Virus record (IMG/VR): IMGVR_UViG_3300032323_003026
Span: 1-39,718 of that record
From: a virus
DNA length: 39,718 nt
Strand: one strand, 5' to 3'
Shown here: positions 4,392-24,716 of the stretch, in pieces
Numbering within the stretch: the stretch's first letter is position 1
How the letters are laid out: the number at the start of each line of letters is the position of its first letter
Notes under the pieces: model-generated
Told to the model about the DNA's origin: nothing
The model's input: the letters and a program-made list of their open reading frames with translations, nothing else
The model's database searches: none
Position numbers and translations under genes: made by a program

Positions 4392-5120
4392 TCATGCAAA
4401 CTGTGCGCCGTTGCTGAGTGTTGACCACACCTTGCGCTTTTCATAGTAGCGAGCCATGCCAGGCCAGTCTGCGGCATAGATGCTGAAGCTGTAACCAGGA
4501 CGATGGCACCAAGTGTTCCACTTCTTGTTCAAATGTCCGCCAGCACCGCCACCTGATCCAGTGTGGGCACGTTGACGTCCGGTTCTAAAGGTACCACTGG
4601 AGAACAAGTCACTGCCCAGATAGATGTAGTCAAACTCTTTGGGCCAGCGCACCAGCCACTCAATGTTACCATGCCAGCCAGGATAACCCTGTGGCGCTTT
4701 TTCGTCACGGCCGCCCCAGTTGGTCACACCGTTGTGTGGGCATGAGTGTGTGTTGCTGACTGAGTCACTCCAGCGCAGATCAAACTTGGTGAATTCCAAG
4801 ATTTTAGGGCAGGGCATGACAGTGGCATTTTTGCCGCGGCTGATTTTCTTTCCAACAGTGTCCCAGTCGCGCGGATCACCTGCGGCTGCTTCGGCCCAGA
4901 ACAGGTGCTGATTGTCAATGACCATCTGTGCCCATTGCTCAAGACTCTGCTCACGATTGTAGAATTCAATCCACACAGCATCCTTGGCTTCACGATCAAG
5001 ACGCAGTTTCTTTTGAGCCAAGCGATGGCGTGCCAGCTTGCGCAGGTGGGCTTGATACTTTGATTTGTCCTCAAAGATCTTGCCGTCAGATTCGCTTTTC
5101 CATGCTGTGATTTGTGCCAT
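4392..5120 (-). CDS. Phage protein of unknown function, 242 aa
   Basis: This is a 242-residue protein with a good ribosome-binding site (AGGAGC six bases before the ATG). Residues 1-50 are a Lys/Arg-rich helical region with a short N-terminal element (WKSESDGKIFEDKSKYQAHL) that looks like a small nucleic-acid-binding hairpin. The centre is rich in Trp, His, Cys and Gly (SCPHNGVTNWGG near residue 130, then GYPGWHGNIEW), and a glycine-rich loop (TGSGGGAGGHL) lies near 195. The Cys/His content could support metal binding. It is the last gene of a three-gene transcript (AAA+ ATPase, 34-aa membrane peptide, this protein) that ends at the terminator at about 4314. I do not recognise a family. Its constant association with the ATPase would be the best clue to function. 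Confidence 0.75.
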   Translation of the reverse strand: MAQITAWKSESDGKIFEDKSKYQAHLRKLARHRLAQKKLRLDREAKDAVWIEFYNREQSLEQWAQMVIDNQHLFWAEAAAGDPRDWDTVGKKISRGKNATVMPCPKILEFTKFDLRWSDSVSNTHSCPHNGVTNWGGRDEKAPQGYPGWHGNIEWLVRWPKEFDYIYLGSDLFSSGTFRTGRQRAHTGSGGGAGGHLNKKWNTWCHRPGYSFSIYAADWPGMARYYEKRKVWSTLSNGAQFA

Positions 5121-5136
5121 GATGTTGCTCCTGAAT

Positions 5137-5241
5137 CTAGAGCACTGCTATACAAAAAATCAAAAATGCAATGAATGGATGTCCAAACAACAAGGCCATT
5201 ATGGCAAGTATAGTGCCAAAGAAGGCCTTGTCGCTGTCCAC
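5137..5241 (-). CDS. 34-aa single-pass membrane peptide
   Basis: This short ORF has a GTG start at 5241, one base after the ATPase stop codon (TAAAGTG), and ends with TAG at 5139-5137, 16 bases before the next ATG. The peptide begins MDSDKAFFGTILAIMALLFG and continues with a hydrophobic stretch to its last residue, so almost the whole chain is one predicted membrane helix with an acidic N-terminal cap. A weak AAGG motif precedes the start. It fills the only gap in a three-gene operon and has no stop codon over a hydrophobic run, which supports it as real. Function unknown; it could anchor a partner to the membrane or perturb the membrane. Confidence 0.6.
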   Translation of the reverse strand: MDSDKAFFGTILAIMALLFGHPFIAFLIFCIAVL

Positions 5242-5242
5242 T

Positions 5243-6265
5243 TTAGGCTGCCTTCATGCAAGTGGTCTCAGCCAGGCGCTTCCAGTTCAACACACTGAGC
5301 TTGCGAAGATCCGCAATCTTCAGTGCCATGCGCAGGCTGACTTCACGCAGACGATCTTTGTTGACATTCATGAAGTCAATGATGTCATCTTGCACCGCAG
5401 GCTCAAAATCATAGTCTGCGAACAGCACGCCATCTTTGGCAATCTGCCGGATACGCAAGAGCTTGTCACGCATGGTATCCAAGGTCAGATCCAAGTAGTG
5501 GCAGCGGCTTTGCAGTGCATCCAAGTGATCGCGCAGCTTCTGGCTCTTCATGGTGTCAAACTTCAAGTTGGTGATAAAAATCACCGAGCCTTTGAACTCA
5601 AACTGGTCTGGGATGCCTTCGCGACGCAGAGTGCTGCTCTCACTCAGCCAAGAAATCTTGCGCTTCTTGCCTGAGTCCAGTGCGCCTTTCAGCAGGTTCA
5701 GTGCTACGTCATCCAGCAGGATGCTGTCGCAGTCGTCAAACACAACCACACAGTTGGAGTCACTGTATTTGTACAGAGTTTGATACAGGCCAATGGGAGT
5801 GGCTGAGCCTTTGACAACTTCAGCGCGAAGTCGTTTGTTGGCTAGCTTGTCAAACAAACAAGCCTTGTCAATTTCTTGCTCGACACCGTAGCTCTTGCCC
5901 ACGCCAGGAGGGCCCGACACAATCATGGCACGAATGTCACCACTGACACAGGCCTTGGTCATTTCTTGCAGGATTTCAAAACGCTCACGGATACGATCCA
6001 TGGCCTGCTCGTCAGTTTCGGCCGCAGCCGCATGCTTTTCAAATTTCACAGTGTTTTCTTGTGTCATTGGGGTAGTGTACTCGATATCCGAAATATCTTC
6101 AACTCGCACTCGGATTGTTTCGGGGCACTTAGGGAAGATGCCGTTGTTTTTGACAGTGACATAGCCGCCACGGGCACCAGTTTGAAACCCTGACACCAGT
6201 TCAAACACAGTGTCAATGACAGGGGTGCCGCGGTAGTTACCGTTGATGACTCGAATTGCACTCAT
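5243..6265 (-). CDS. AAA+ ATPase
   Basis: This is a 340-residue AAA+ family ATPase. Walker A is GPPGVGKS at residues 118-125, Walker B is VVVFDDCD at 173-180, and a sensor-1 asparagine sits in FITN at about 233. The N-terminal 100 residues are a beta-rich domain (GNYRGTPVIDTVFELVSG) plus a linker. The C-terminal part (about 250-340) is a helical lid. It is not the usual gp44 clamp-loader ATPase: the sequence around the P-loop, the SATPIGLYQTLYKYSD segment and the N-terminal domain are different. Similar ATPases of unknown role occur in other large myophages. It is first in a transcript from a near-consensus promoter at 6308-6336, with ribosome-binding site AAAGGAGC before the ATG, so strong and early expression is likely. 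The substrate is unknown. Confidence 0.88.
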   Translation of the reverse strand: MSAIRVINGNYRGTPVIDTVFELVSGFQTGARGGYVTVKNNGIFPKCPETIRVRVEDISDIEYTTPMTQENTVKFEKHAAAAETDEQAMDRIRERFEILQEMTKACVSGDIRAMIVSGPPGVGKSYGVEQEIDKACLFDKLANKRLRAEVVKGSATPIGLYQTLYKYSDSNCVVVFDDCDSILLDDVALNLLKGALDSGKKRKISWLSESSTLRREGIPDQFEFKGSVIFITNLKFDTMKSQKLRDHLDALQSRCHYLDLTLDTMRDKLLRIRQIAKDGVLFADYDFEPAVQDDIIDFMNVNKDRLREVSLRMALKIADLRKLSVLNWKRLAETTCMKAA

Positions 6266-6307
6266 GGTTGGCTCCTTTAGTGTGCGGTTGTTTCTTACTA
6301 TGCATCT

Positions 6308-6336
6308 ATTATAGCAAATGGCGAATTAATGGTCAA
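6308..6336 (-). promoter_or_regulatory. Near-consensus sigma70 promoter of the ATPase operon
   Basis: TTGACC (6336-6331), a 17-nt spacer and a perfect TATAAT (6313-6308) on the minus strand. The start codon of the AAA+ ATPase follows about 42 bases downstream with a good AAAGGAGC ribosome-binding site, so the leader is short and conventional. Confidence 0.88.
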
Positions 6337-6383
6337 CCAAATTAACCCGCCGTGTTGTGTGGCTTTTTTGCCACTATTTTTTG

Positions 6384-6608
6384 TTATTTTTCTGCGATCA
6401 TTTGCTGGATTTTGGCCTGATCTTGCAGCTGACCCAGGATCATGTTATAAAGAACATAAACAGCCATGATCATCAAAAACCCTACGCCTATCCAGGGCAG
6501 CAGATCAATACTGATCATCTTTATAATTTCCACAGTGGCCAGGGCTGCCACCACACTGCCGCCCAGGGCACCCAGGGTCAACAACAAAGCTTTGACTTTC
6601 AAGTTCAT
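6384..6608 (-). CDS. Small two-helix membrane protein, 74 aa
   Basis: The product has two predicted membrane helices: about residues 5-26 (VKALLLTLGALGGSVVAALA) and about 36-57 (LPWIGVGFLMIMAVYVLYNM), with a charged, glutamine-rich C-terminal tail. I chose the ATG at 6608 because AAAGGA lies eight bases upstream of it. An in-frame ATG at 6626 coincides with the predicted transcription start of the promoter at 6633-6661 and would be leaderless without need. A strong dedicated promoter suggests abundant expression early in infection. Function unknown; an envelope-acting role is possible. Confidence 0.75.
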   Translation of the reverse strand: MNLKVKALLLTLGALGGSVVAALATVEIIKMISIDLLPWIGVGFLMIMAVYVLYNMILGQLQDQAKIQQMIAEK

Positions 6609-6632
6609 ATTGAATTTTCCTTTCATGCTGTG

Positions 6633-6661
6633 ATTGTAGCATCAGCACAATTAACGGTCAA
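6633..6661 (-). promoter_or_regulatory. Sigma70-type promoter of small membrane gene
   Basis: TTGACC (6661-6656), a 17-nt spacer and TACAAT (6638-6633). The spacer of this promoter and of the one at 6308-6336 both begin with a T-T-A-A-T-T segment, so the two promoters look like relatives. It reads into the 74-aa membrane protein gene. Confidence 0.85.
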
Positions 6662-6674
6662 CCTTGTGGCAGAT

Positions 6675-7082
6675 TTACAACAAATATAAAAAGTTGTACA
6701 GTTGATCAGTGGGCACACTGTGTTGTTTGTAGCCTTCGATCACTGTGTCAAGGTATTGTTGCGTGGGCTGCGCATTGGCCACACCTGGCTGCATGAAATA
6801 ACAGTGAGCCATCACAGTGCGGCCCTGATGTTCCACTGCCAGTTCTCGGCGGTCATAATACCATGGATAGCCTTCTAGCCGGTCAAGACTATTTAGGTGA
6901 TGCTGATCAATGCTCCACAACACACCATCAACAAAACTGTCTTCGCAGGGAACCACGTCTGCATGCACAGCAAATCTAAAACCGTGCTTCAACAATCGAG
7001 CTGCACCCAGACTCAATGCGCCAGAGCAGCGTTGAGCCATACCAGATCGATTGGTGTTCATTCCATAGGAAAAATAAAGCAT
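6675..7082 (-). CDS. Gamma-glutamylcyclotransferase-like protein
   Basis: This is a 135-residue protein of the GGCT/AIG2-like fold. The family signature YFSYGMN at residues 3-9 forms the substrate-binding loop, and the glutamate in LDRLEGYP (E70) is at the place of the catalytic acid of the family. The segment YYDRRELAVEHQGR follows the usual strand order. Enzymes of this fold cyclise gamma-glutamyl amines to 5-oxoproline or cleave related gamma-glutamyl bonds; the phage substrate is unknown. The length fits a single complete domain. The gene has its own sigma70-type promoter and no clear ribosome-binding site. The family call is firm, while a role in host glutathione metabolism or in modifying a defence metabolite is only a guess. 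Confidence 0.85.
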   Translation of the reverse strand: MLYFSYGMNTNRSGMAQRCSGALSLGAARLLKHGFRFAVHADVVPCEDSFVDGVLWSIDQHHLNSLDRLEGYPWYYDRRELAVEHQGRTVMAHCYFMQPGVANAQPTQQYLDTVIEGYKQHSVPTDQLYNFLYLL

Positions 7083-7105
7083 GGTTTTTTAAATGATTAG
7101 CCTGT

Positions 7106-7134
7106 AGTGTAACACAGGTCTATAAATCAGTCAA
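7106..7134 (-). promoter_or_regulatory. Sigma70-type promoter of the GGCT-like gene
   Basis: TTGACT (7134-7129), a 17-nt spacer and TACACT (7111-7106) on the minus strand, in the gap between the 238-aa glycosyltransferase gene and the GGCT-like gene. The start codon is 23 bases beyond the -10 box. Confidence 0.78.
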
Positions 7135-7140
7135 GAACTA

Positions 7141-7857
7141 TCAACACCATAACTGTTGAATCACTGGATCATCAATTTGATGAGGTTTGGGCTGTCCGTG
7201 AAAAACCAACACAGAGGTTTCGCCGTCAATTGCTGCGCCTGTGCCTAACTTGTTGACTTGTCTAGTTTGAAAATTGTACCCACCATCTTTGACCTGCCAA
7301 CGATAACTTTGTACCAATTTTGTATCAAAGTAACGTAGATCGTTTTTGTCTATCGCTGCATTGAGGTAGTCTTGATCACCATAATACTGTTTCACAGTAG
7401 ACAAGATGTTTTTGCCATTGAACTGCTGCCAAACATTGTCAAACTTTGCAACATTCCACCACATCACACTGCTGTTAATTCCAACATATCTAGAATTTTG
7501 CAAATATTTAAAGTCTTTGATGGTCCAAAATTTTTCAGTAGACAATGCAGTAATCCAGGCAAGATCTCTCACTATCACACAATCAAGATCAAAATACAAC
7601 AAGTTGCCTTGATGATGTTCAGCATTGAACATTTGTATTTTATACCACCAAGATTTTTTGGGTCCTTTGATCCCAGGCCAATCTTCCAAACAGTGTTTGA
7701 TCATGTGTGGCGGCACTGATCGATCGTGCTCGGTGTAGACATGAAAACGTATGCGTGGTAAGTTACGGCACAACATGTTGTACAGTTTTTCAACATAGAT
7801 CCAGTCATACCCTGTTCCATGTATCACACATGCACAATCAATGACATGTTTGGTCAT
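7141..7857 (-). CDS. Glycosyltransferase, GT-A fold (DxD)
   Basis: This is a 238-residue nucleotide-sugar glycosyltransferase of the GT-A fold. The DLD motif at residues 90-92, after a beta strand (GNLLYF), is the expected metal and nucleotide-sugar site. The N-terminal strand-helix-strand layout (HVIDCACVIHG, later IRFHVYTEHD) and the C-terminal HGQPKPHQ segment resemble GT8-like and phage capsule-type transferases. The start MTKHVID at 7857 overlaps the stop of the GT17 gene as ATGA; the longer in-frame start at 7878 would lie inside that gene. It is the second gene of the GT17 transcript. Donor and acceptor are unknown; likely targets are host surface glycans or virion proteins. Confidence 0.82.
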   Translation of the reverse strand: MTKHVIDCACVIHGTGYDWIYVEKLYNMLCRNLPRIRFHVYTEHDRSVPPHMIKHCLEDWPGIKGPKKSWWYKIQMFNAEHHQGNLLYFDLDCVIVRDLAWITALSTEKFWTIKDFKYLQNSRYVGINSSVMWWNVAKFDNVWQQFNGKNILSTVKQYYGDQDYLNAAIDKNDLRYFDTKLVQSYRWQVKDGGYNFQTRQVNKLGTGAAIDGETSVLVFHGQPKPHQIDDPVIQQLWC

Positions 7858-8687
7858 GGTTGTAAGGCACCGCTCCACAAAGCTGGGTATTGTTTGGCCA
7901 GTCTAAGCAGATTCAAATCAAGTCCTTCAGTGCCAACTTTGACGGCTCGCATCTTGCCTTTCTTGACTACTTGATTGTACTGACCTTGTGTCATGCCTTG
8001 TGCAATATCTGTGCTGGTTTTGTTTAACTTTTGTTGCCAACCAGGACCTTCACGTTTGGCTGAAATTTGTTGTTCTTTCATCATCACATCGCCCATGAGA
8101 GTGAAATGCCAGCCTGCTTCCAAATAGGCAGGGCCATAATCGCCCCAGGTCTTGTTTTTGCTCATGTAAAGATTCTGTATGGGATCTGGTATGTTAGTGA
8201 CATGACACATCTTGGTTCCGGGCCAGCGCCCGCTTTGCGTTTGCCAATCAAAATATGCTGTGCGTACATCTTGAGACCAAAACATCTTGCCATGTTGATC
8301 AACTAGCTGTTTGGCTTGGTCAAAGCATCGGGTGTCGGGAAACTCGTCGAGGTCACTCATCATCATGTATTCATCTTGGCCCACCTGTTTGATCATAGAG
8401 GCCAAAGCATTGCGCATTTCTCGTTCTACATGGCGACTGTTGTTTTTGAAATTTTCTTCGCCAGGTTCAAACACACTGCGATCAATTTGAAGATAATGAT
8501 AGTCAATTTTGTTACGCTGTGACAGTGTGAGTTGTTGATAAACTTGGTCAAATTGTGCAGCATGAGGTTGGCAACTGAATGTGGTGTCTGTCTCTACAAT
8601 CACAAATCTTCGAACATAAGGTTCAAGATACTGTATTCTTAGAGCAAACAGGTCAGTTTCATTGAAATAGAGAAAACTGTCGATCAT
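7854..8687 (-). CDS. Glycosyltransferase family 17 protein
   Basis: This is a 277-residue member of GT17, the family of beta-1,4-N-acetylglucosaminyltransferases. The N-terminus MIDSFLYFNETDLFALRI followed by the strand RFVIVETDTTF is the family hallmark, and SDLDEFPD at 111-118 carries the acidic metal-binding motif. The middle REMRNAL and the late segment YLEAGWHFT also fit. I chose ATG 8687; the upstream TTG at 8693 is less likely. A late-type element (GGTAAATA at 8701-8694) ends six bases before this ATG. The gene is divergent from the FkbM methyltransferase gene only 39 bases away. It probably adds a sugar to a glycan made by this island. Confidence 0.88.
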   Translation of the reverse strand: MIDSFLYFNETDLFALRIQYLEPYVRRFVIVETDTTFSCQPHAAQFDQVYQQLTLSQRNKIDYHYLQIDRSVFEPGEENFKNNSRHVEREMRNALASMIKQVGQDEYMMMSDLDEFPDTRCFDQAKQLVDQHGKMFWSQDVRTAYFDWQTQSGRWPGTKMCHVTNIPDPIQNLYMSKNKTWGDYGPAYLEAGWHFTLMGDVMMKEQQISAKREGPGWQQKLNKTSTDIAQGMTQGQYNQVVKKGKMRAVKVGTEGLDLNLLRLAKQYPALWSGALQP

Positions 8688-8693
8688 GATCAA

Positions 8694-8701
8694 TATTTAC
8701 C
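8694..8701 (-). promoter_or_regulatory. Late-type promoter element GGTAAATA
   Basis: GGTAAATA on the minus strand, a variant of the T4 late -10 element TATAAATA, six bases before the GT17 ATG. It lies back to back with the plus-strand element at 8714-8721. Confidence 0.55.
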
Positions 8702-8713
8702 GTTAAAGGCTAC

Positions 8714-8721
8714 TATAAATA
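8714..8721 (+). promoter_or_regulatory. Late promoter TATAAATA
   Basis: Exact match to the T4 late promoter -10 element, five bases upstream of the FkbM methyltransferase ATG. T4-type late transcription would start at or beside the start codon, so the mRNA is predicted to be leaderless. Confidence 0.7.
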
Positions 8722-8726
8722 GTTTT

Positions 8727-9338
8727 ATGAAACAGCCCAGAATGATATCACAGTTCTTCCAACATCATTGGCCGCAAGGCCAGTCTGGATTCTATGTAGA
8801 GATAGGTGCGTGGAATGGTTACAAGAAAAACAGTACCAAACTGTTGGAAGATGCCGGTTGGGACGGTGTATGTGTGGAACCCACCCCTACCAGCTTTGCT
8901 GAGCTGGTCAAGAATCGCAGATGCCGATGTTTGAATGTGGCGGTGTTTGATCATGTTGGCGAAATGGAGTTTGCGGTGTTTGCAGACCGACCTGAATGGA
9001 ACGGCATACTCAAAACATTTGATATGGCACATGCCAAAAAAACTCAAGAAAAATACAATCAAACGCTGGAAATTATCCGAGTGCCTTGTGTTACATGGCA
9101 ACAACTGGAATTGCCTAGTCATATTGATTACTTGCAAGTGGACGTTGAAGGCGCAGAGCTGCAAATCTTAAACACTGTGCCCTGGAATTCTGTCAACATT
9201 GACTGGATCTGCCTCGAAGACAATGCCAGTATGTCTGGTGACTTGACCTATAGAAACTACATGAAAGATCTCGGATACGAAATTGTCAGAAACGATCGTC
9301 AAGATTATCTATACCGACGCTGTGTAACAGTCTACTGA
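8727..9338 (+). CDS. FkbM-family SAM methyltransferase
   Basis: This is a 203-residue class I methyltransferase of the FkbM (Methyltransf_21) family, which O-methylates sugars and other small molecules. Motif I is FYVEIGAWNG at residues 22-31, the acidic end of strand 2 is CVEP at about 49-52, and the post-motif segment HIDYLQVDVEGAELQIL near 134-150 is diagnostic of the family. It is one of few plus-strand genes here, driven by an exact TATAAATA element. Its last 53 bases overlap the 3-prime end of the minus-strand gene at 9286-10149. A likely role is capping or decorating the glycan built by neighbouring transferases. Confidence 0.92.
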   Translation: MKQPRMISQFFQHHWPQGQSGFYVEIGAWNGYKKNSTKLLEDAGWDGVCVEPTPTSFAELVKNRRCRCLNVAVFDHVGEMEFAVFADRPEWNGILKTFDMAHAKKTQEKYNQTLEIIRVPCVTWQQLELPSHIDYLQVDVEGAELQILNTVPWNSVNIDWICLEDNASMSGDLTYRNYMKDLGYEIVRNDRQDYLYRRCVTVY

Positions 9339-10149
9339 GTGGCAGGCCCAAAGCAATCTCGTTCACTGTCCATTCAGTGTGCGCCAACCAAGTCAGCCAC
9401 TGTTGACGTTGTGGATATTGTGGATTTTCAATCATAGACAGATCAGTATTACCAACTTCGGCAGCCAAACTGGCGTTGCCAACAAACACAGGTACTCCAG
9501 CTATTGCTGCCTGTGGCCCTGGCGCAGAGTTCCAATTTACTACTGCCCATGCATTGACCAAGGTGTTGTCAAAATCAAAACTGTCATAGGTGTTGGTCAA
9601 CAATCGTGGTTTCACTGACATACAACCTGCTGGTACTGTGACAGGGTACCTAGGGTGAGGTCTAACCACAATGGGTCTATCACTGTGCTGTCGAATCTTA
9701 TCAACAGTGTGTTGCAACCATTGATTGATTGCAGGTTGCCCATGCCATTGATAACTGTCAGCACGCTGCAAAGCAATCACTATGTTTTGCCCAGAACGCC
9801 TCCAAGGATGTATTTGCATGCCTAAAATTTTGTCACGATCTGGCTGATCTACTGCGTTGGGATAACACTGTCGGCCAGTGCCGTTGACCCCCAACTTCCA
9901 AGTACGTCCACGATCAATCATGCCTACTTCGGCCACAATCACGGTGCGCCCAGATTGTGTGTACGTCTGCCATACAGCTTGATTACGTCGCATACGGCCG
10001 GACCACAGCACGCTCCATATCACAGCTATGTCTGCAGAGTCGTTGTGATAACTCACCGAGATCCCCAATCTCTGTAGTCCTTGTGCAATGGCCTCAAACA
10101 CCGGTGCACTGTTTCTAGCACCAAATTGATTATAGAGGCTCACTTGCAT
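9286..10149 (-). CDS. Capsule-synthesis-like protein, copy 1
   Basis: This is a 287-residue protein starting MQVSLYNQFGARNSAPVF; the frame continues upstream to 10266 but that part would run into the divergent gene. It has the look of the capsule polysaccharide biosynthesis (KpsS/LipB-like, GT-B-type) family: a basic DRPIVVRPHPR segment near residue 160, then AWAVVNWNSAPGPQAAIAG and VPVFVG, as in nucleotide-sugar-binding C-terminal domains. The same block order is found in the genes at 10965-11870 and 12599-13396, along with a C-terminal NTDLSMIENPQYP motif, so the three are paralogues. It is divergent from the DxD glycosyltransferase at 10165 with only 15 bases between start codons. Its 3-prime end overlaps the FkbM gene tail to tail by 53 bases. 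Confidence 0.75.
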   Translation of the reverse strand: MQVSLYNQFGARNSAPVFEAIAQGLQRLGISVSYHNDSADIAVIWSVLWSGRMRRNQAVWQTYTQSGRTVIVAEVGMIDRGRTWKLGVNGTGRQCYPNAVDQPDRDKILGMQIHPWRRSGQNIVIALQRADSYQWHGQPAINQWLQHTVDKIRQHSDRPIVVRPHPRYPVTVPAGCMSVKPRLLTNTYDSFDFDNTLVNAWAVVNWNSAPGPQAAIAGVPVFVGNASLAAEVGNTDLSMIENPQYPQRQQWLTWLAHTEWTVNEIALGLPLSRLLHSVGIDNLDDRF

Positions 10150-10164
10150 GATGATAATTAATGT

Positions 10165-10977
10165 ATGAGGTATATTGTAGTTACCACGTTCAATCAAAAA
10201 GGGTACGAGAAGTACGGGCAGCGCATGATTCAAACTTTTTTGGCTCAATGGCCTGCGCATGTACAACTGGTGGTCTATGCAGAAAACTGCACAGTGCTGG
10301 AATCAGCTCCAAATCTCAAAGTTCTAGATTTACACGAAGCCAGCACTGCACTGGTAAGATTCAAAGATCAGTGGAGCACTGTGCCCAAAGCCACAGGCGA
10401 TGTCAGTGATGACCCTGTACGCAGTCAACGCAAAGATGCAGGCAAAGGATTTAAATGGAATGCAGTGAGATTTGCACACAAAGTTTACTCAATATTTCAC
10501 TGTGCCAAACACTATGCCTGTGACTGGTTAATATGGATGGATGCTGACATGGTGTGTCACTCACCCGTTACCATGCCTATACTGGATCAGTTCTGTCCAC
10601 TCAATCGCGATTTGTGTTATCTAGGGCGTGTGGGCAAATACAGCGAGTGTGGGTTGTACGCAATGAATCTCAACTCCAAGGCAACCAGAAATTTTTTAAC
10701 ACATTTTCAACAAATGTATGATGATGCCGAACATGGTATTTTTAGTCTGCAAGAATGGCATGACAGTTTTGTGTTTGATGCAGTGAGATCCAAGCATCCA
10801 TTGCGCACACTGGACTGGTCGGCTAACTTGATCAAAGGCGAAGGCCACCCCCTGATCAACAGTGGCTGGGGCGCCTATTTGGATCATCTCAAAGGCGATC
10901 GCAAAGAGCAAGGCCGCAGCAAATCCAAAGATTTAAAGATCAAAAGATCTGAGCCATATTGGCGTCAAACCCAATGA
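10165..10977 (+). CDS. Glycosyltransferase, GT-A fold, copy A
   Basis: This is a 270-residue transferase. The N-terminus MRYIVVTTFNQKGYEKYGQR gives the first strand and helix, and DAD at residues 126-128 in LIWMDADMV is the metal-binding motif. It is clearly paralogous to the minus-strand gene at 11845-12609, which has the same start (ITSMNQAYYEKCG) and LIWLDADVV. There is no ribosome-binding site, and only 15 bases separate its ATG from the divergent ATG at 10149; a degenerate late-like element (GATAATTA) lies four bases upstream. The last 13 bases overlap the convergent gene at 10965. Donor and acceptor unknown. Confidence 0.83.
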   Translation: MRYIVVTTFNQKGYEKYGQRMIQTFLAQWPAHVQLVVYAENCTVLESAPNLKVLDLHEASTALVRFKDQWSTVPKATGDVSDDPVRSQRKDAGKGFKWNAVRFAHKVYSIFHCAKHYACDWLIWMDADMVCHSPVTMPILDQFCPLNRDLCYLGRVGKYSECGLYAMNLNSKATRNFLTHFQQMYDDAEHGIFSLQEWHDSFVFDAVRSKHPLRTLDWSANLIKGEGHPLINSGWGAYLDHLKGDRKEQGRSKSKDLKIKRSEPYWRQTQ

Positions 10978-11870
10978 CGCATGTGTGCCCAACAAGCGCC
11001 TGAACTGAGTTCGTCAAACTTCCAATGAAACATAGAAATGCGCTGAAGCCAACTGAGTCGATCTGGCAACTGCGGTGTTTCAATCATGGACAACTCTGTG
11101 TTGGCAATGTCTTTGCACTGACTACGAGTAGGATCTGTAACAAAAACTGGATAGCCTTCTATGGCAGCTCCCACAACTGAACTGGAATTGTAATTGACCA
11201 CTGCCCAACAATTTTTAAGATCATGCTGCATGTCACAGCCTGTATCACTGATTGAAACTCCAGGTATGCCAACAAACTGTCCAAGATAAGCTGCACTGCT
11301 GCGATCACCTGGATGCGGTCTGATGCGTATGGGCCGGTCTGTGTGCTGTTTTAATTTTTGTATCACAGCGTGTGTCCACGCTGGCACAGCAAAGTCACCC
11401 ATGCTCCAGCCACCGTTGCGTTGTAGACACAGCAGCACATGATTTCCTTGTTGACGATAGTCTCGCACTGTGAGTTTGAGATCACTCTGAATTTGTTGCC
11501 AACGTCTAGGATCAATCACAGTGTCACAGTAAATGCCTGTGGTAGGAAAAATACCATTGAAACTGTATCTGAGATAATGTCCAGGGTTGGCACGATCTTT
11601 GTAGAGAAACAGATTGCTGTCCACAGCAACCACTCTTGAATGTTGTGCAATGGCTGCACCTCGCAGTTGCAAATGCGGCCTAGCACTGACTTCGTGAGTC
11701 CAACCTTGTATTACTCCAACGTCTGCTGGCACACATTGGTGGCCTGTGACATCAATTACTTTGTCACCACAGTATTTGGCACCAGTGGCAAATCGTGTGA
11801 GAATTTCAGGCTTTTCAGGATTCTTGTTGCCTGGCGGTACACTGTTATGATAGATTGCTAGAGTTGGCAT
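10965..11870 (-). CDS. Capsule-synthesis-like protein, copy 2
   Basis: This is a 301-residue paralogue of the 9286-10149 protein. It has the shared blocks TDRPIRIRPHPGDR near residue 190, CWAVVNYNSSSVVGAAIEG near 230, YPVFVTDP, and NTELSMIETPQLPDRLSWL near the C-terminus. The chosen start is MPTLAIYHNSVPPG at 11870; a longer frame begins at 11894. The start lies 26 bases inside the end of the DxD transferase gene at 11845, so the two are translated as a pair: a DxD glycosyltransferase followed by a capsule-type protein. A pairing of the same two families occurs at 9286/10165, which points to module duplication. Probable role: a sugar transfer in a surface or virion glycan. Confidence 0.75.
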   Translation of the reverse strand: MPTLAIYHNSVPPGNKNPEKPEILTRFATGAKYCGDKVIDVTGHQCVPADVGVIQGWTHEVSARPHLQLRGAAIAQHSRVVAVDSNLFLYKDRANPGHYLRYSFNGIFPTTGIYCDTVIDPRRWQQIQSDLKLTVRDYRQQGNHVLLCLQRNGGWSMGDFAVPAWTHAVIQKLKQHTDRPIRIRPHPGDRSSAAYLGQFVGIPGVSISDTGCDMQHDLKNCWAVVNYNSSSVVGAAIEGYPVFVTDPTRSQCKDIANTELSMIETPQLPDRLSWLQRISMFHWKFDELSSGACWAHMRHWV

Positions 11871-12609
11871 GTTGCAACAAACTTGCGCTGTCAAATGGAT
11901 CTTTGGCTCCGGCCTTGTAGTGTTTGATGTAAGGAGCCATCACACTGCGAGGAATGGGTGTTTTGTGTCGCTGTCCTGGATTCAACTCCATCATGTCAGC
12001 ACCAGCAGCAGACATTTCAGCCACTACTGCTCCGTACACCTCGCCGTCATAGAAACGTCGCAATTTGTAGCCTAAATCGTTGCGGTAGTAGTCTAGATAT
12101 CGCTGTGCAAAAGTGCCAAACATTTCATGACACTTGTTTACCACAAAAAAGCCAGTTTCACAACTGAAACTCATGCGATCAGGATCATCCTCGCTGGGCC
12201 AATCGTGCCATACACCATAGTGTGTGCTGAGCACATGATCTGGAGTGATCATGTCCAACAGCTGAGGATTCACTGCCATGGTTGTGACCACATCAGCGTC
12301 TAACCAAATCAATCTATCGCAGGCAATGTTTTGCATGGCATGAATCACGCTGAACGCTTTTTTTGCAAACTGTCTGGTGCGACTGCCAGTTTCGCGATTC
12401 ATGAAATTTGTATAGTCAACAGGCAAGTCTGACCAAGGAACATAACGTGCCCATTTGTTTTTTGGTGGGTCGACCATGTCTTCATTGTACACATACAGCG
12501 GAATGTTTTGTGGCCAATTCAATCCGTAGCTTTCAATACAGGCACGCCCACATTTTTCATAGTAAGCCTGGTTCATGCTGGTTATACAAACAAACTTTTT
12601 ACTGGCCAT
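11845..12609 (-). CDS. Glycosyltransferase, GT-A fold, copy B
   Basis: This is a 254-residue paralogue of the 10165-10977 protein. The first strand is KKFVCITSMNQAYYEKCG, and the DAD motif is at 104-106 in RLIWLDADVV. The C-terminal half contains SCETGFFVVNK and a YYRNDLGYKLRRFYDGEVYGA segment typical of acceptor-side loops. The start MASKKFV at 12609 is supported by GGAG six bases upstream; the frame is open for another 54 codons that would lie inside the preceding gene. It overlaps that gene by 11 bases and the next by 26 bases. Acts in the same glycan pathway as its neighbours. Confidence 0.85.
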   Translation of the reverse strand: MASKKFVCITSMNQAYYEKCGRACIESYGLNWPQNIPLYVYNEDMVDPPKNKWARYVPWSDLPVDYTNFMNRETGSRTRQFAKKAFSVIHAMQNIACDRLIWLDADVVTTMAVNPQLLDMITPDHVLSTHYGVWHDWPSEDDPDRMSFSCETGFFVVNKCHEMFGTFAQRYLDYYRNDLGYKLRRFYDGEVYGAVVAEMSAAGADMMELNPGQRHKTPIPRSVMAPYIKHYKAGAKDPFDSASLLQHANSSNLS

Positions 12610-13396
12610 GTTGCTCCGCCATGATGTGTTTGGCCTGTCCTGACTGTAACTCTTTGACATGACACTGACCATAGGCCAAGTGGCAAGCCCAGGCCTGTCG
12701 CAGATCTTCATCAGGCCAAAAAGGATCGTCAATGCTGTCAAGTGCGGCATTGGCCACAGGTGCAGCAGCATTGCACGGTGCCAAAACGAAAGCTGGCACT
12801 CCCTGCATCACTGCTTCTGTGGCAGCCACGCTGTTGAAAGTGACCAAAGCATGCACATCATCTGCCAGCACTTTGGCCAAAGGATCTTGATGCACACGGT
12901 CGTCTCTGCGTGGCGATCGCTGCCGTATTGTAATGGGTCTATCAGTGATTTTTTTTAGCGTTGCAACAGTGGTGGTCAACCAGTGTTGTTGATCTATGTT
13001 GTAGAACTTGCAAGGCTTTTCATCAGGCACAGCAATAACAATTTGTCTGCCATGTCGTCTAGGGTGCATGTCAATTGCCAGGCGCTCCCAACGATCTCTA
13101 GGACGATGCACAATGGTATTGTGTTGCAAATTGTTGGGCACAATACGATGCCAAAGTTTGTACCCATGCGGATTTTTTGGGCCAACATTGTTGCCGAAAT
13201 AACCTGAATCCATGTAAAAAAACTTTCTGCCTGACTGCATACATTGCTTGATTACTTTGTTGAGGATACCTCTCAACACCACTGGTTGGTCACTGGTTGC
13301 AAAATCAAAATCTTCAGTGTTGGTTGCTGGAACGCCGCAGCCCTGGGCCAACATGTTGATATATTGATCTTTGCCTTGCTTGCTTAAAAAAATCAT
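12599..13396 (-). CDS. Capsule-synthesis-like protein, copy 3 (divergent)
   Basis: This is a 265-residue, more diverged third member of the paralogous set. The blocks are ITDRPITIRQRSPRRDDR near residue 150, ALVTFNSVAATEAVMQGVPAFVLAP near 185-210, and a C-terminal VANAALDSIDDPFWPDEDLR that corresponds to the NTELSMIE motif. The RPHP tetrad of the other copies is changed to RQRS, so its catalysis or donor use may differ. It starts with ATG 13396 overlapping the previous stop as ATGA. It lies between two DxD transferase genes in one string of five overlapping minus-strand genes. Confidence 0.72.
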   Translation of the reverse strand: MIFLSKQGKDQYINMLAQGCGVPATNTEDFDFATSDQPVVLRGILNKVIKQCMQSGRKFFYMDSGYFGNNVGPKNPHGYKLWHRIVPNNLQHNTIVHRPRDRWERLAIDMHPRRHGRQIVIAVPDEKPCKFYNIDQQHWLTTTVATLKKITDRPITIRQRSPRRDDRVHQDPLAKVLADDVHALVTFNSVAATEAVMQGVPAFVLAPCNAAAPVANAALDSIDDPFWPDEDLRQAWACHLAYGQCHVKELQSGQAKHIMAEQHGQ

Positions 13397-14076
13397 ATGT
13401 TACTTTGTTCACAGTACTCAGTCAAAATACGCTGGCGATGCCATTCATCGCCCTGAGGTGTGTCAGCAAATTCGTGAAAGCAGGGTGCACCCAGGGTGTA
13501 ATGCAACAGCTTGGCATCGGTGTTGGCTCCGTATTCATCAGGCAGCCAATTCCATTCTGGCGGTAGTTGTCCTATTCTACTGTCATCTAGCCAGGTAAAA
13601 CGATGCAATTGAGCACCAGTTGACTGTTGCACAAACTCTGGGGTAAGTTTGCGATTAGGATAACTGTTGCAGTTCCAAAGTATGACGCTGCTCCAATTTT
13701 TTCTTGGATAATCTTCGTTTTTGGCGCCAAGATATTTTACAGGTCTGCAAGTTTTATATTCATGTTTGACCACTTGAACATCCGTGTCTAGTCGTCTCAA
13801 ATTCCACAACTCAGTGATGTCTCCTCGCACAATCATGTCGCCATCTATGAAGATTGCATGTCCTTGATAGTTTTGCAAATACGGCACTAGAAATCTAGTG
13901 TAGATAAAATGATTGCTGCCGTCTGTGTGAGTTTCTGTATAGTCTTTGAACAGGTTTAGTGCCACAGGTATGATAGCAACTGGTTGACTGGAGTTGCGTA
14001 TGATAGAGTTAACACACACATGATATGCAATGGCTTCTCTAGGATCATAACCGATGTATACCGGAATGGCTTTCAT
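13393..14076 (-). CDS. GT8-like glycosyltransferase
   Basis: This is a 227-residue transferase of a type widely found in aquatic T4-like phages. The first strand is AIPVYIGYDPREAIAYHVC, the region THTDGSNHFIYTRFLVPYL near 50-67 binds the nucleotide sugar, and IFIDGDMIVRGDI carries the DGD metal motif at 78-80. Further conserved blocks are KYLGAKNEDYPRKNWSSVI and the C-terminal KLLHYTLGAPCF, whose His is the usual third metal ligand. Start and stop overlap the neighbours as ATGA. The activity is presumably hexosyl transfer to the island's glycan. Confidence 0.87.
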   Translation of the reverse strand: MKAIPVYIGYDPREAIAYHVCVNSIIRNSSQPVAIIPVALNLFKDYTETHTDGSNHFIYTRFLVPYLQNYQGHAIFIDGDMIVRGDITELWNLRRLDTDVQVVKHEYKTCRPVKYLGAKNEDYPRKNWSSVILWNCNSYPNRKLTPEFVQQSTGAQLHRFTWLDDSRIGQLPPEWNWLPDEYGANTDAKLLHYTLGAPCFHEFADTPQGDEWHRQRILTEYCEQSNI

Positions 14077-14834
14077 TTTCTCTCAATGTCGTTTTCAATG
14101 CAGGCATCACCGAATTGAATTTCAATCAACTTCAACGGTTCTGTGGTTTCATTGCACAGCATATGCCATTGGTTGCGATCAATCCAAACATATTCGTGCC
14201 GTCGGAAACAACCTAGATGTTCGTGATCAGTACTGGAATCCAAGGTATACACTGTGGCTTCACCTTCGGCCACAAACCAAAACTCTGCACGTTGATCATG
14301 ACGTTGCATGCTCAAGCAAGTCTTGGGCATCACAGTGAGTTCTTTGAGTTTGGTATGGTCTCCCACTTCGTGAAGCACACGATAGTAACCCCAAGCTCGG
14401 TCAGTCTTAGGAGCTTTCCATTCTTCCAAGATCCAGCTGCTGCTGTTTTTTTTGTCTTCGCCGCCCACACCAAACACAAATTCTATGTTGGGATCTTCAA
14501 CATCCATTTCGGGAATGTTTTTTGCTGTGCGATCGCCACCGTTGGCAAATATCAGCGTGGCAGTGGGCCAGTGTGCTCTGACCTGTTGTATAAAATGCTT
14601 GGCCGACCCGTCGCTATCATCAAAGGTGTACACTTCGTCTACCATGCTGAGATTGTTGATCACAGCCAAGCGCTCATTCCAGGGCATGAATGCACGGCCT
14701 TTCTTTCTAGCCAGCCATTCATCGCTGTTGAGCCCCACTATGAGTTGATCGCCTAAATTGCGAGCTGCTTTGAAGTACGCAATGTGTCCTGAATGCACAG
14801 GATCAAAACCGCCGGTGACAAGTACAATGTTCAT
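14073..14834 (-). CDS. Nucleotidyltransferase-cupin fusion
   Basis: This is a 253-residue bifunctional protein. Residues 1-125 are a cytidylyltransferase-like domain with GGFDPVHSGH at 8-17 (the HxGH nucleotide-binding motif) and GGDR near 99. Such domains make CDP- or ADP-activated sugars or polyols. Residues about 145-245 are a cupin of the mannose-6-phosphate isomerase type, with metal-ligand-like H179 and E184 in QRHDQRAEFW and H224. The fusion suggests that one protein isomerises and activates a sugar for the neighbouring transferases. It has an exact TATAAATA late element five bases from the ATG and heads the string of five minus-strand glycan genes. Confidence 0.88.
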   Translation of the reverse strand: MNIVLVTGGFDPVHSGHIAYFKAARNLGDQLIVGLNSDEWLARKKGRAFMPWNERLAVINNLSMVDEVYTFDDSDGSAKHFIQQVRAHWPTATLIFANGGDRTAKNIPEMDVEDPNIEFVFGVGGEDKKNSSSWILEEWKAPKTDRAWGYYRVLHEVGDHTKLKELTVMPKTCLSMQRHDQRAEFWFVAEGEATVYTLDSSTDHEHLGCFRRHEYVWIDRNQWHMLCNETTEPLKLIEIQFGDACIENDIERK

Positions 14835-14839
14835 GCAGA

Positions 14840-14847
14840 TATTTATA
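14840..14847 (-). promoter_or_regulatory. Late promoter TATAAATA
   Basis: Exact T4 late element on the minus strand, five bases before the ATG of the nucleotidyltransferase-cupin gene. Only 12 bases away a plus-strand element (14860-14867) serves the divergent methyltransferase gene. Confidence 0.7.
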
Positions 14848-14859
14848 GGCTAACATTAG

Positions 14860-14867
14860 GGTAAATA
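14860..14867 (+). promoter_or_regulatory. Late-type promoter element GGTAAATA
   Basis: GGTAAATA on the plus strand, four bases before the methyltransferase ATG at 14872. The same variant occurs before the GT17 and tail-tube genes. Confidence 0.5.
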
Positions 14868-14871
14868 CAAA

Positions 14872-15441
14872 ATGAACCATTTTTATCAAGACATCCAAGG
14901 ATTTATGAGTCACAAAAACACAGTGATGCTAGACATTGTGTTGGATCGATTCCCGGTTGGCGGCCACTGGGTCGAGCTGGGAGCATGGACAGGAAAAAGC
15001 ACAGCCTATTGTGTGGTGGAACTGTGGCGTAGACAAAAATTAAACAAATTCTACTGTGTGGATACCTGGGACGGCGGTATCGAACTGATTGATCAAGACA
15101 TTGTAAAATCGCAAAGTCTTGAACAGGTTTTTCGAAACAATGTGGCTCCTATCATTGATCTAATTGAGCCTATCAAAAGTTTGAGTTGGGACGCAGCGGC
15201 CAGATTCAGTGACAGGTCTGTGGATTTTTGCTACGTGGATGCTGGGCACACCTATGAATGTGTGATTCAAGATTTACGGGCATGGTGGCCCAAGATCAAG
15301 CCAGGTGGTCAATTTGGCGGTGATGATTACACCAAAGGCCACCCTGGAGTGCAACAAGCTGTGCACGAATTTTTTGAAGCACTCAACATTAAGGTGTGCA
15401 GAGCTGGTCGGTGTTGGTTGGTAGACAAACCTAATTTTTGA
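14872..15441 (+). CDS. Class I SAM methyltransferase (Methyltransf_24 type)
   Basis: This is a 189-residue methyltransferase. Motif I is VELGAWTGKS at residues 34-43, the acidic strand-2 end is YCVDTWDG near 60-66, and DFCYVDAGHTYECV near 119-132 with the later KPGGQFGGDDYTKGHPGV is the pattern of the Methyltransf_24 family seen in sugar and cephalosporin-hydroxylase-like enzymes. It is read from the plus strand, divergent from the nucleotidyltransferase-cupin gene 37 bases away. It ends 38 bases before the convergent uvsY stop; no terminator is visible between them. Likely modifies a sugar or glycan terminus. Confidence 0.88.
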   Translation: MNHFYQDIQGFMSHKNTVMLDIVLDRFPVGGHWVELGAWTGKSTAYCVVELWRRQKLNKFYCVDTWDGGIELIDQDIVKSQSLEQVFRNNVAPIIDLIEPIKSLSWDAAARFSDRSVDFCYVDAGHTYECVIQDLRAWWPKIKPGGQFGGDDYTKGHPGVQQAVHEFFEALNIKVCRAGRCWLVDKPNF

Positions 15442-15479
15442 CCGCGCAGTTTGGCAACTTCAATATCTTCAGGTCCTAG

Positions 15480-15932
15480 TTACACCGTAATATCTTCCAT
15501 GCCCGCTGTGCGCAGTCGCACAATGTGACCCATTTGCCACTGTTTGGTATCAAGACCTTTCATGATGCCTAGCCAGCGATTGCGCAAATAAGCCACTTCG
15601 TTCACAATGGTTTCGTAGTCAATGACTTCGTCCTCGCCGTCAACGTACTTTTCGGCGTCTCGCGAAGTCAAGGCACGAGCATAACCTTCAAGGTACTTCT
15701 GAAAGTGCTTGCGTCTGATCTTGCGCAGTTGAATGTTGAGATAGTTCAATACTGCTTCAATCTCTTGCAGTTGATTGTATCTAAACTCAGTGATGCCAGG
15801 CAGTGCTGTGATATTTTTTTCTACCAACCCACTGATGCGGCAATCTTTTTTGGCTTCTTCTAGCTCACGTTCGTAGTGTGCAATGAAATCAGGAATAGCA
15901 CCAATGTTGGCAACTACTCTACTGTACCACAT
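15480..15932 (-). CDS. uvsY: UvsY recombination mediator
   Basis: This is a 150-residue protein matching UvsY, which loads the UvsX recombinase onto gp32-coated single-stranded DNA. The protein is largely helical and charged. The characteristic middle region RKHFQKYLEGYARALTSRD and the segment VDGEDEVIDYETIVNEV are typical of UvsY in environmental T4-like phages, as is the C-terminal LDTKQWQMGHIVRL. T4 UvsY is 137 aa. It is the last gene of the gp32-uvsX operon, and its ATG overlaps the preceding stop as TGATG. Identification is by sequence pattern and operon position together. Confidence 0.85.
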   Translation of the reverse strand: MWYSRVVANIGAIPDFIAHYERELEEAKKDCRISGLVEKNITALPGITEFRYNQLQEIEAVLNYLNIQLRKIRRKHFQKYLEGYARALTSRDAEKYVDGEDEVIDYETIVNEVAYLRNRWLGIMKGLDTKQWQMGHIVRLRTAGMEDITV

Positions 15933-16189
15933 CAGTTTTCCCAGTCGTTGTAATCTTCTTCCTCGGCTTCTTCTTCGTCTTCGTCAGAATAGTCACGGTC
16001 GTTGTCTAGGTAAGATGTTAGAGCACGTTTGATGTCACTGTCACTTTTGAATGCATCTGTGATTTCGTCTACGTCAATATCATGATCGATCATGATATTG
16101 ACCATTTGTAATGCAGCATCGCCACGATCTACAACGTTGATATAACGTTTCAACTCACCCCAAATTTCAGCTCCAATTAATGCACTCAT
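15932..16189 (-). CDS. Small acidic protein between uvsX and uvsY
   Basis: This is an 85-residue protein. Residues 1-60 form a helical domain (IWGELKRYINVVDRGDAALQM and later EITDAFKSDSDIKRAL), and the last 20 residues are extremely acidic (DEDEEEAEEED). Its start overlaps the uvsX stop as ATGA and its stop overlaps the uvsY start. The acidic tail is like those of single-stranded-DNA-binding and recombination partners, and the position between recombinase and mediator suggests it modulates UvsX filament assembly; that is inference. I cannot assign a family. Confidence 0.75.
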   Translation of the reverse strand: MSALIGAEIWGELKRYINVVDRGDAALQMVNIMIDHDIDVDEITDAFKSDSDIKRALTSYLDNDRDYSDEDEEEAEEEDYNDWEN

Positions 16190-17241
16190 TCTGCGTCCTC
16201 CTCAACTGTAGTTACCTCTTCCTTGCGTTTTCCAAATTCTGCCATCACAACATCCAAACAGCCGTTTTCATTTGACTCCCAGCCTTTGCGGAAGAATTTG
16301 ATAATTTCTCCATCCAATGTAGTATAAGCAAGACGATTGCCGTCCTTCTTGAGAAAGCCTTTTTTCTCTGCCAAGTCTGTTAGGCCTGAGTAAGGGTTCA
16401 TGCCTGTCTCATAGGGAATCTTGACCTGTACACCTTCAAAGGGTTTGGCATAGCGAGTTTTCATGACCTTGCAGGCACTGCGAATACCCATGACTTCTGA
16501 AATCTTGTTGCCGTCCTCATCCTCTTTGAGCTTGAGTTTTTTCATAGCCACCACAATAGAGCTGGCGTAAATGAAACCTTGACCGCCAGAGATTTTATCA
16601 TCGGGGTCAAACATATCCTGGCTGGCGTAAGTGTGATTGGTACAAACCAAACCCACGTTGTATGAACCAAACATGTTCACACAGTTACGCACCAAGGCAG
16701 TGAGAGCTTTGGGTTTACGTCCTAGATCACCCTTCATTTCGCCTGCGTCAAACTGATTCACATCAGTAGGCGTCAACAACATGCCCAGTGAGTCAATCAC
16801 AAACATGACTTTGGGACGCTCGCCTTCGGCTAGAGCCTTGTAGTCACTCATGAATGTTGAAATGGTCTTGGCCACATCGTCAATCATGGCCATGCTCAAC
16901 TTCAGCAATTTGCTTTCGCTGGTATCCACACCCAAGGCCTTGAGCCAGTCTTCATCCAAGGCGTTTTCACTGTCAATCAGCACCACAAAGATGCCTTGCT
17001 CTTGAGCGTTTTTAATAATATTGCCAGAGCAGATATAGCTTTTGCCAGCACCTGATTCTCCGGCAAACACAGTGACCTTGCCCAAGGGAATGCCACGATT
17101 GAAGTCGCCCGAGATCAGGTAGTTCAAGGCATAGTTGCCTGTGGAGACCCAGTCAGTGGGATCGTTGAAACCGATGGAGAGTCCATCGATTGATTTGGTT
17201 ATTTCTTTACGGAATTTTGAAACGTCAAAAGGTTTTCCCAT
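16186..17241 (-). CDS. uvsX: UvsX RecA-like recombinase
   Basis: This is a 351-residue RecA/RAD51-family strand-exchange protein, central to recombination-dependent replication. Walker A is GESGAGKS at residues 61-68, Walker B is VMFVIDSLGML near 145-155, and the L2-type loop is represented by NHTYASQDMFDPDDKISGGQG near 200-220. The C-terminal acidic tail (EEVTTVEEDAE) is usual for UvsX. It follows gp32 in the same direction; a ribosome-binding-type AAAGG lies upstream of the ATG, and a perfect hairpin at 17262-17285 separates it from gp32 and may set their relative levels. Confidence 0.95.
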   Translation of the reverse strand: MGKPFDVSKFRKEITKSIDGLSIGFNDPTDWVSTGNYALNYLISGDFNRGIPLGKVTVFAGESGAGKSYICSGNIIKNAQEQGIFVVLIDSENALDEDWLKALGVDTSESKLLKLSMAMIDDVAKTISTFMSDYKALAEGERPKVMFVIDSLGMLLTPTDVNQFDAGEMKGDLGRKPKALTALVRNCVNMFGSYNVGLVCTNHTYASQDMFDPDDKISGGQGFIYASSIVVAMKKLKLKEDEDGNKISEVMGIRSACKVMKTRYAKPFEGVQVKIPYETGMNPYSGLTDLAEKKGFLKKDGNRLAYTTLDGEIIKFFRKGWESNENGCLDVVMAEFGKRKEEVTTVEEDAE

Positions 17242-17252
17242 ATTGTGCCTTT

Positions 17253-17285
17253 AAAATAGAAACACACAGGGTTGCCCCTGTGTGT
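17253..17285 (-). terminator. Hairpin terminator or attenuator between gp32 and uvsX
   Basis: Minus strand: a perfect ten-base-pair stem (arms 17285-17276 and 17271-17262, ACACACAGGG / CCCTGTGTGT) with a GCAA tetraloop, followed by a T-rich but interrupted tail (TTCTATTTT). It follows the gp32 stop codon by eight bases. The weak tail suggests partial termination or a 3-prime stabilising hairpin for the gp32 mRNA. Confidence 0.8.
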
Positions 17286-17293
17286 AATTTTGA

Positions 17294-18292
17294 TTACTGC
17301 TTGTTTTGTCTAGCACGAATCATGGCCAGGATGTCGGCTGCATTGCCTGACGGCTTGGCAGTAGTCACAGGCGCTGCGGCTGCTGGGGCCTCATCGGTGT
17401 CAAACGGTGGATCATCATCCTGGGCAGCAGAGGCTGCCTTGGCCACAGGCACTGCCTTGGCCACAGGTGCTGGTGCAGCATCTTCGCTGTCGCCACGACC
17501 TGGTGCTTGAACGCCAGCTGGACGGAAGTACTGACCCCAACGCTCAGTGTCATAGGGCTGGCCATCCACTGAAGCTTCAAACATTTCTTTGATCACACGA
17601 AGCTCAACGTCAGTGGGCTTCTTGGGCAAGAATGTTGAAAGGTCAAACAGGCCATGTTTTTCAATGGCTGCCTGTTCGGCTTCTGTGAGTGCACTCTCTT
17701 TGCGAGCCCACTTAGAGCTGTTGTAGTCAGCAAAGCCACCTTTGGATCCTTTGCTGATGCGGAAGTCCAGACCACGCAGGTAGTCGGTTGGCAATTCTTC
17801 CAGCTCAGGGTCCATCAGTGCACCCTTGATGGTGGTAAAGATCTGCGGCCCAATGATGAACCTGCGGATAGGATTGTCTGGAGTCTTGTCATCGGCCAAG
17901 GGATTCTCACGTACAAAACCCTGGAACACATAGCTGCGTTTCTTCCAGTATTTGCGACCCATGTCCTCAAGACTCTTGTCTTTGAACCAGGTACGAACTT
18001 CGGCCAAAATAGGGCAAGCATCGCCCCACATCTCCACGCAGGGCACTTGCACCATGACCTGTTTGGATTCCATTTCGCCTTTGATGCCAGCAAAGGGCAG
18101 GCGAATCATTGCACGTTCGACCCAGAAAAATGTGTTCTTTGAGTTACCATCTGGTAGGAAGCGAATTGAGGCGCTTTGGCCTTCTTCCATGTTCCAGTGT
18201 GGGTAAATGGAGTTGTCTCCACCGGTGGATTGCCCACCTTGTTTGTTTTCAGCTGCCTGTAAACGTGCTCGAATTTCTGCTAAAGATGCCAT
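17294..18292 (-). CDS. 32: gp32 single-stranded DNA-binding protein
   Basis: This is a 332-residue gp32 homologue that coats single-stranded DNA in replication and recombination. The N-terminal basic region is followed by the OB-fold core (NSIYPHWNMEEGQSASIRFL, then KNTFFWVERAMIRLPF, and KKRSYVFQGFVRENPL). The zinc-loop region reads VQVPCVEMWGDACPI, which retains only two cysteines, so the full T4 zinc site (His plus three Cys) is not evident. The C-terminal part (about 270-320) is Ala-rich and acidic (DDDPPFDTDEAPAAAAP), as expected for the protein-recruiting tail. The ribosome-binding site AAAGGAGA precedes the ATG. It is read from the promoter at 18393-18421 with a leader of about 94 bases containing three direct repeats. 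Confidence 0.92.
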   Translation of the reverse strand: MASLAEIRARLQAAENKQGGQSTGGDNSIYPHWNMEEGQSASIRFLPDGNSKNTFFWVERAMIRLPFAGIKGEMESKQVMVQVPCVEMWGDACPILAEVRTWFKDKSLEDMGRKYWKKRSYVFQGFVRENPLADDKTPDNPIRRFIIGPQIFTTIKGALMDPELEELPTDYLRGLDFRISKGSKGGFADYNSSKWARKESALTEAEQAAIEKHGLFDLSTFLPKKPTDVELRVIKEMFEASVDGQPYDTERWGQYFRPAGVQAPGRGDSEDAAPAPVAKAVPVAKAASAAQDDDPPFDTDEAPAAAAPVTTAKPSGNAADILAMIRARQNKQ

Positions 18293-24712: not shown

Positions 24713-24716
24713 AAGG

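Follow-up and report, generated by a model that had tools for sequence, protein, structure and literature searches.

A variable glycan gene island at a fixed genomic address in T4-like jumbo phages, with late-type promoter motifs

IMG/VR virus record IMGVR_UViG_3300032323_003026 consists only of a 39.7 kb fragment, which was analysed at its full length (hereafter the window); it comes from a freshwater T4-like jumbo phage and carries, between positions 7141 and 15441, an island of eleven genes, all intact open reading frames (ORFs), of which eight encode glycosyltransferase-type enzymes, one a nucleotidyltransferase-cupin fusion (NTcup) and two methyltransferases. Among relatives of this phage the island keeps one address, between uvsY and the AAA ATPase/helicase genes, with a gene content that is exchanged in the manner of bacterial O-antigen loci; its paralogous transferases diverged long ago and its leading gene lies behind a late-type promoter motif. 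We favour, as the somewhat more probable reading, a role in late, cytosolic glycosylation of the phage's own virion proteins. More tentatively, the island may be a clade-wide, O-antigen-like "virotype" locus, a late cassette held at one address and exchanged by recombination, through which near-identical phages could carry different methylated coats of the 3-deoxy-D-manno-oct-2-ulosonic acid (Kdo) type, built with a KpsC-like family that has diversified in phages and is common to unrelated ones.

T4-like markers in the window are the terminase, UvsX, UvsY, the ssDNA-binding protein, the tail sheath and the tail tube. The terminase is 72-94% identical to that of the best 80 IMG/VR loci, several of them on contigs of more than 300 kb, but only about 52% identical to that of named phages, the nearest being PA5oct-like Pseudomonas jumbo phages, and no near DNA match to positions 5000-25000 was found among 50,697 phage records.

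Fixed address and variable gene content

Island families adjoin uvsY (15480..15932, minus strand; phrog_231, 2.8e-13) in 27 of the 28 terminase-selected contigs with at least 1.5 kb of sequence beyond that gene, and in the 28th (L080) genes of the DAD glycosyltransferase family lie about 3 and 9 kb beyond it (positions compared by hand); the DAD family was present in all 12 long relatives. Gene content was compared over a set of 45 islands, free of duplicates and complete from uvsY to the AAA or helicase gene, 44 of them from relatives and one from the window, where the left flank is a conserved AAA ATPase gene (5243..6265, minus strand; phrog_1250, 2.1e-82). Here the KpsC-like B family had a mean of 3.8 copies and DAD was found in 45 islands, although both counts are biased because the set was baited with B3 and DAD1, unlike the terminase-based count; GT8 was found in 41 islands, NTcup in 38 and the DLD-motif glycosyltransferase in 35. 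Among the accessory genes are methyltransferases (FkbM and several others), GT25, GT17 (7 of the 45 islands), GDP-mannose dehydratase (Gmd family, 9 islands, and also found away from the island in long relatives), UDP-glucose/GDP-mannose dehydrogenase, polysaccharide pyruvyltransferase and S-adenosylmethionine (SAM) synthetase, the last in two loci; a sizeable group of loci shows block inversion.

The island is not a product of chance, since in dozens of relatives this address is occupied by the same families, and a one-off insertion is ruled out by that fixed address. The sequence-only reading had called such an island unusual for a T4-like phage and had credited it with a full biosynthetic route. 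Neither description was supported, as the island is clade-wide here and cyanophage clusters have already been published, and in the window it encodes a single nucleotide-activating enzyme and neither a dehydratase nor an epimerase for sugar nucleotides, some relatives adding Gmd, a dehydrogenase of the UDP-glucose type or SAM synthetase. One contig filed as a Neomarinimicrobiota bacterium (PBPT01000016.1) has uvsY, a helicase gene and a complete glycan island; most likely it belongs to a phage and was misfiled.

Cassette exchange between relatives

Comparison of the window with one relative, L213, gave DNA identities of 95% at 1965-3422, 87% at 5237-7839 and 77-83% at 13404-17285, with only two patches of 67-70% identity between 7839 and 13404; at the protein level, the helicase and AAA proteins were 98-99% identical, anchor identity was 95% and the island proteins had a median identity of 57%. 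Over 641 pairs, an anchor identity of 90-95% went with an island median of 69%, and anchors at 85-90% with one of 57%. Part of this gap is a matter of rate, the anchors being slow-evolving, but the block pattern in the DNA and the replacement of genes are not. Exchange is not constant, since some pairs, L140 and L211 among them, keep similar islands. With content swapped at one address, close relatives would carry different coats.

Late-type promoter motif and timing

The late promoter consensus is TATAAATA for T4 and NATAAATA for cyanophages (PMC2984593). An exact, T4-late-promoter-like TATAAATA occurs twice in the window, at 8714..8721 on the plus strand and at 14840..14847 on the minus strand, in both cases 5 nucleotides upstream of the start codon of an island gene (FkbM and NTcup respectively). 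Upstream of the ATG of 2482 ORFs from the loci, ATAAATA showed a sharp peak at 5 nucleotides (83/189) and a second group at about 17-22 nucleotides, and control heptamers behaved differently. When both spacings were counted, [AG]TAAATA preceded NTcup in 72 of 92 cases, there standing 3-8 nucleotides before the ATG, the gene g32846 in 31 of 34, the tail tube gene in 9 of 10 and g749 in 33 of 81, and was found before uvsX, uvsY and ssb taken together once in 266. The tail tube gene has the motif at the second spacing, followed by a Shine-Dalgarno sequence, and the existence of this spacing argues that the motif is a promoter and not a ribosome signal. As judged from the placement of the motif, the first gene of the island is probably expressed with the virion genes, unlike its neighbours.

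The motif mostly lies 4-5 nucleotides before the ATG with no intervening Shine-Dalgarno sequence (window positions 8714-8726, 14835-14847 and 24713-24724; loci L001-L239), which by T4 numbering would have transcription begin at the AUG, so leaderless late mRNAs are possible in this clade. In Pelagibacter phage Mosig the motif was found at 17-25 nucleotides instead, before three genes. A radical SAM protein whose SPASM domain is N-terminal is encoded near the terminase (23564-24712, minus strand); in 34 of 97 relatives it has the late-type motif, and it is possibly a virion protein-modifying enzyme.

Enzyme folds and predicted activities

NTcup (14073..14834) heads the minus-strand run of the island and joins a HIGH-type nucleotidyltransferase (Pfam, 6.7e-15) to a mannose-6-phosphate-isomerase-type cupin (4.3e-19); in an alignment of 28 sequences, HSGH and many residues of the cupin do not vary. 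The other minus-strand genes encode a GT8-family glycosyltransferase with a DGD motif (13393..14076; PF01501, 7.7e-8; phrog_28018, 1.5e-36), B3 (12599..13396; a weak DUF6716 match), DAD2 (11845..12609), B2 (10965..11870), B1 (9286..10149), a GT17-family glycosyltransferase (7854..8687; PF04724, 1.6e-16) and the DLD-motif glycosyltransferase GTdld (7141..7857; phrog_1962, 4.8e-21). On the plus strand lie the FkbM methyltransferase (8727..9338; PF05050, 2.5e-13; TIGR01444), DAD1 (10165..10977), which is divergent from B1, and a TylF-like Methyltransf_24 methyltransferase (14872..15441; 6.4e-20). All the families listed in the sequence-only reading were thus found as intact ORFs, although its count of ten genes has to be raised to eleven. 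Raw ORF starts were too long in several genes, likely starts being 10149 for B1, 11870 for B2, 12609 for DAD2, 7857 for DLD and 8687 for GT17.

AlphaFold2 models were obtained for B3 and DAD1 with a predicted local distance difference test score of 93.8 and 95.0 respectively. The top 12 Foldseek matches of B3 were all Kdo transferases (KrkA, KpsC, WbbB; E 1.6e-5 to 3e-3), and alignment to these by VIA-align gave Z scores of 9.5-11.7 over 208-234 residues, so that the modelled B3 has the GT-B fold of the retaining beta-Kdo transferase family. This likeness is one of predicted fold, as B3 has 8-12% sequence identity to KpsC, WbbB and KrkA, is shorter and has lost the histidine of the HP motif. 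B1 and B2 retain this motif and, by their paralogy to B3, would be GT-B-type members of the same KpsC-like fold family. The DAD1 model, with D126 and D128 invariant, matches retaining GT-A enzymes (GT6, glycogenin, LARGE and the capsid transferase 2p72 of chlorovirus PBCV-1), its Z score of 14.1 against 2p72 being tied with those of other enzymes of this kind.

NCBIfam yielded no names for the B, DAD, GT8 and DLD proteins, and for the substrate of NTcup its best models, HldE domain II and glycerol-3-phosphate cytidylyltransferase, both fell far below cut-off. Domain matches, a check for membrane segments and the DAD1 model agree that the phage encodes soluble glycosyltransferases, and there is good support for a product that combines several sugars and is methylated.

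Homologues that match NTcup over its full length at about 50% identity are present in SAR11, SAR86 and other genomes (L248-L327 except L257, the most likely misfiled contig above), where NTcup is an uncharacterised enzyme of marine bacteria. The cellular neighbourhood gave no clue to a pathway, unrelated housekeeping genes surrounding it in the two genomes examined, and no other island family was found near cellular NTcup in the 80 fetched loci except L257.

Paralogue history

The paralogy proposed earlier for the DAD and capsule-like (B) genes is real, with pairwise identities of 25% for DAD1/DAD2 (E 3e-18), 34% for B1/B2 (3e-29), 31% for B1/B3 and 24% for B2/B3. In a maximum-likelihood tree built from 101 B proteins, the three B copies of the window fall into three distinct, well-supported clades, every one of which draws its members from many loci, and on this tree the B duplications predate the diversification of the phage clade. 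A recent, local origin of the B copies is ruled out by these many-locus clades and by the low identities, and DAD1 and DAD2 are themselves only distantly alike.

Destination of the glycan

Phage virions are usually regarded as bare protein. In the scheme that we favour, NTcup would activate a phospho-sugar-like metabolite; the GT8, DLD, GT17, DAD and B enzymes would then add sugars singly, some of the B enzymes perhaps drawing on host CMP-Kdo; the FkbM and TylF-type methyltransferases would methylate the glycan product; and the acceptor would probably be a structural protein synthesised at the same time. We infer the donors, the order of addition and the virion acceptor, as well as the biological role, which may lie in altered adsorption, in shielding or in escape from receptors or grazers.

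The sequence-only reading had offered two sites for the glycan, the virion and the host surface, and it is the former that has gained support. Neither a Wzx flippase nor GtrA was found in 12-13 long relatives, in searches with positive controls (GtrA, the mark of Gtr-type O-antigen seroconversion, was found in 0 of 12 contigs, which are perhaps incomplete, its control being positive in 7 genomes), and no recurrent transmembrane protein was seen in the core island families, where there were only scattered near-threshold hits and small unrelated ORFs. Kindred genes lie beside structural genes in other phages: B3 and GT8 kin between the tail genes and the endolysin of Caulobacter phage CcrSC, DAD and B kin directly upstream of the terminase of podovirus ct7QV12 (42.7 kb), and GT8 and FkbM kin among the structural genes of ctDrO704; Pelagibacter phage Mosig has a DAD-GT8-B3 module with methyltransferases and a sulfotransferase. 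The late motif, the failure to find flippase, GtrA or hydroxymethylase genes in long relatives, and the kin beside structural genes together favour an acceptor that is late-made and cytosolic, namely a virion protein.

Several points weigh against a virion acceptor. No acceptor was identified and no specific virion protein is tied to the locus, and the lipid-linked glycans of the host, before they are flipped, are likewise open to cytosolic transferases. Over the whole window the total of TATAAATA-like sites is not above chance, the signal lying in their placement; the enrichment of the motif (Fisher p ~1e-55) comes from a test which ignores the relatedness of members, so that p overstates their independence; and in Mosig no late motif lies close upstream of the gene that opens the module. 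The bacterial kin of B make capsule and O-antigen, and similar cyanophage clusters were read by their authors as changing the host surface (PMC7824862). As a pointer to the acceptor, serine and threonine content was conspicuous in a 795-residue tail protein (23%) and the sheath (19%), which counts as no evidence. A 749-residue virion-type protein encoded after the terminase (18435-20684, minus strand) aligns well in relatives over about half of its length, the remainder being highly variable.

The main rival, which we consider rather unlikely but deserving of attention, is that the enzymes alter host lipopolysaccharide (LPS), capsule or lipid-linked precursors in the cytosol, leading to a block on superinfection or changed adsorption, as proposed for the clusters of cyanophage P-SSM2. 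The resemblance of B3 to KpsC and WbbB of capsule and O-antigen synthesis, the high polymorphism among relatives and the published reading of similar clusters with HIGH nucleotidyltransferases and cupins (PMC7824862; PMC2984593) all speak for it, but the late-type promoter is shared with virion genes, at a time when superinfection exclusion would gain least, and the lack of detected Wzx or GtrA in the 12-13 long relatives and the position of kindred clusters within structural gene blocks do not fit it well.

T4-like and other phages glycosylate their DNA, and the many transferases of the island could in principle serve to glycosylate modified bases. This is improbable: T4-type glucosylation was rejected as no dCMP hydroxymethylase (thymidylate synthase family) turned up in the 13 long relatives searched (the control was positive in 9 of 14 genomes; the window record itself is a fragment), a search for TET/JBP, made without a positive control, gave no match, the timing is late-type, and eight transferases with FkbM and TylF methyltransferases, plus the pyruvyltransferase and Gmd of relatives, fit polysaccharide chemistry better. 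Least probable of all is a soluble glycosylated metabolite or signal, with which the methyltransferases and the unusual NTcup are compatible and for which the secondary-metabolite-like clusters of cyanophages offer a parallel (PMC7824862), but the 3-4 KpsC-like and 1-2 DAD-type enzymes per locus and the fast gene exchange resemble a polysaccharide locus, and enzymes typical of secondary metabolism were not seen in the islands.

If virion glycosylation is true, a swappable, virion-timed and clade-wide glycan locus would give serotype-like variation of particles, bearing on adsorption and environmental persistence, and for the published phage "LPS clusters" the choice between virion and host surface would become a testable question; Mosig and CcrSC are cultured phages with kindred genes, which makes a test practical.

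Comparison with known systems

Phage glycan clusters as such are already known, but the combination of fixed-address exchange, a late-type promoter and a family of KpsC-like paralogues that also occurs in unrelated phages was not found described in the literature searched. Closest are the LPS/capsular polysaccharide clusters of cyanophages (P-SSM2 and other group 2.1 jumbo phages; Iyer et al. 2021, PMC7824862), which are likewise large and polymorphic, reside in T4-like phages and have paralogous glycosyltransferases, a HIGH-type nucleotidyltransferase and a cupin, their nearest nucleotidyltransferases being 50-56% identical to the N-terminal half of NTcup. The present island differs in its address fixed by uvsY, the fusion of nucleotidyltransferase and cupin, the B family as mainstay and the late-type promoter motif, and while complete cyanophage-type clusters have 1-4 NAD-dependent epimerase/dehydratases the window island has none.

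The moraphages (PMC12619734) are also large aquatic phages and have several core glycosyltransferase orthogroups, but they are described as a separately defined lineage with predicted Bacteroidota hosts, and no such locus layout was found in the available part of that report. In mycobacteriophages, subunits of the capsid and of the tail tube bear glycans (Freeman et al. 2023, as cited in PMC12619734); by that account, the enzyme set here, for which a glycan product is predicted, is far larger, with methyltransferases and gene exchange. In PBCV-1 (PMC7826918, PMC4691112) the virus itself encodes the assembly of a large, unusual capsid glycan, and the DAD1 model matches the fold of its 2p72, but PBCV-1 is a eukaryotic virus with another enzyme set and there is no evidence for common descent of the two systems.

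At the left edge of the island the window carries a gamma-glutamyl cyclotransferase gene (GGACT/AIG2; 6675-7082, minus strand), which is present in 3 of the 45 loci.

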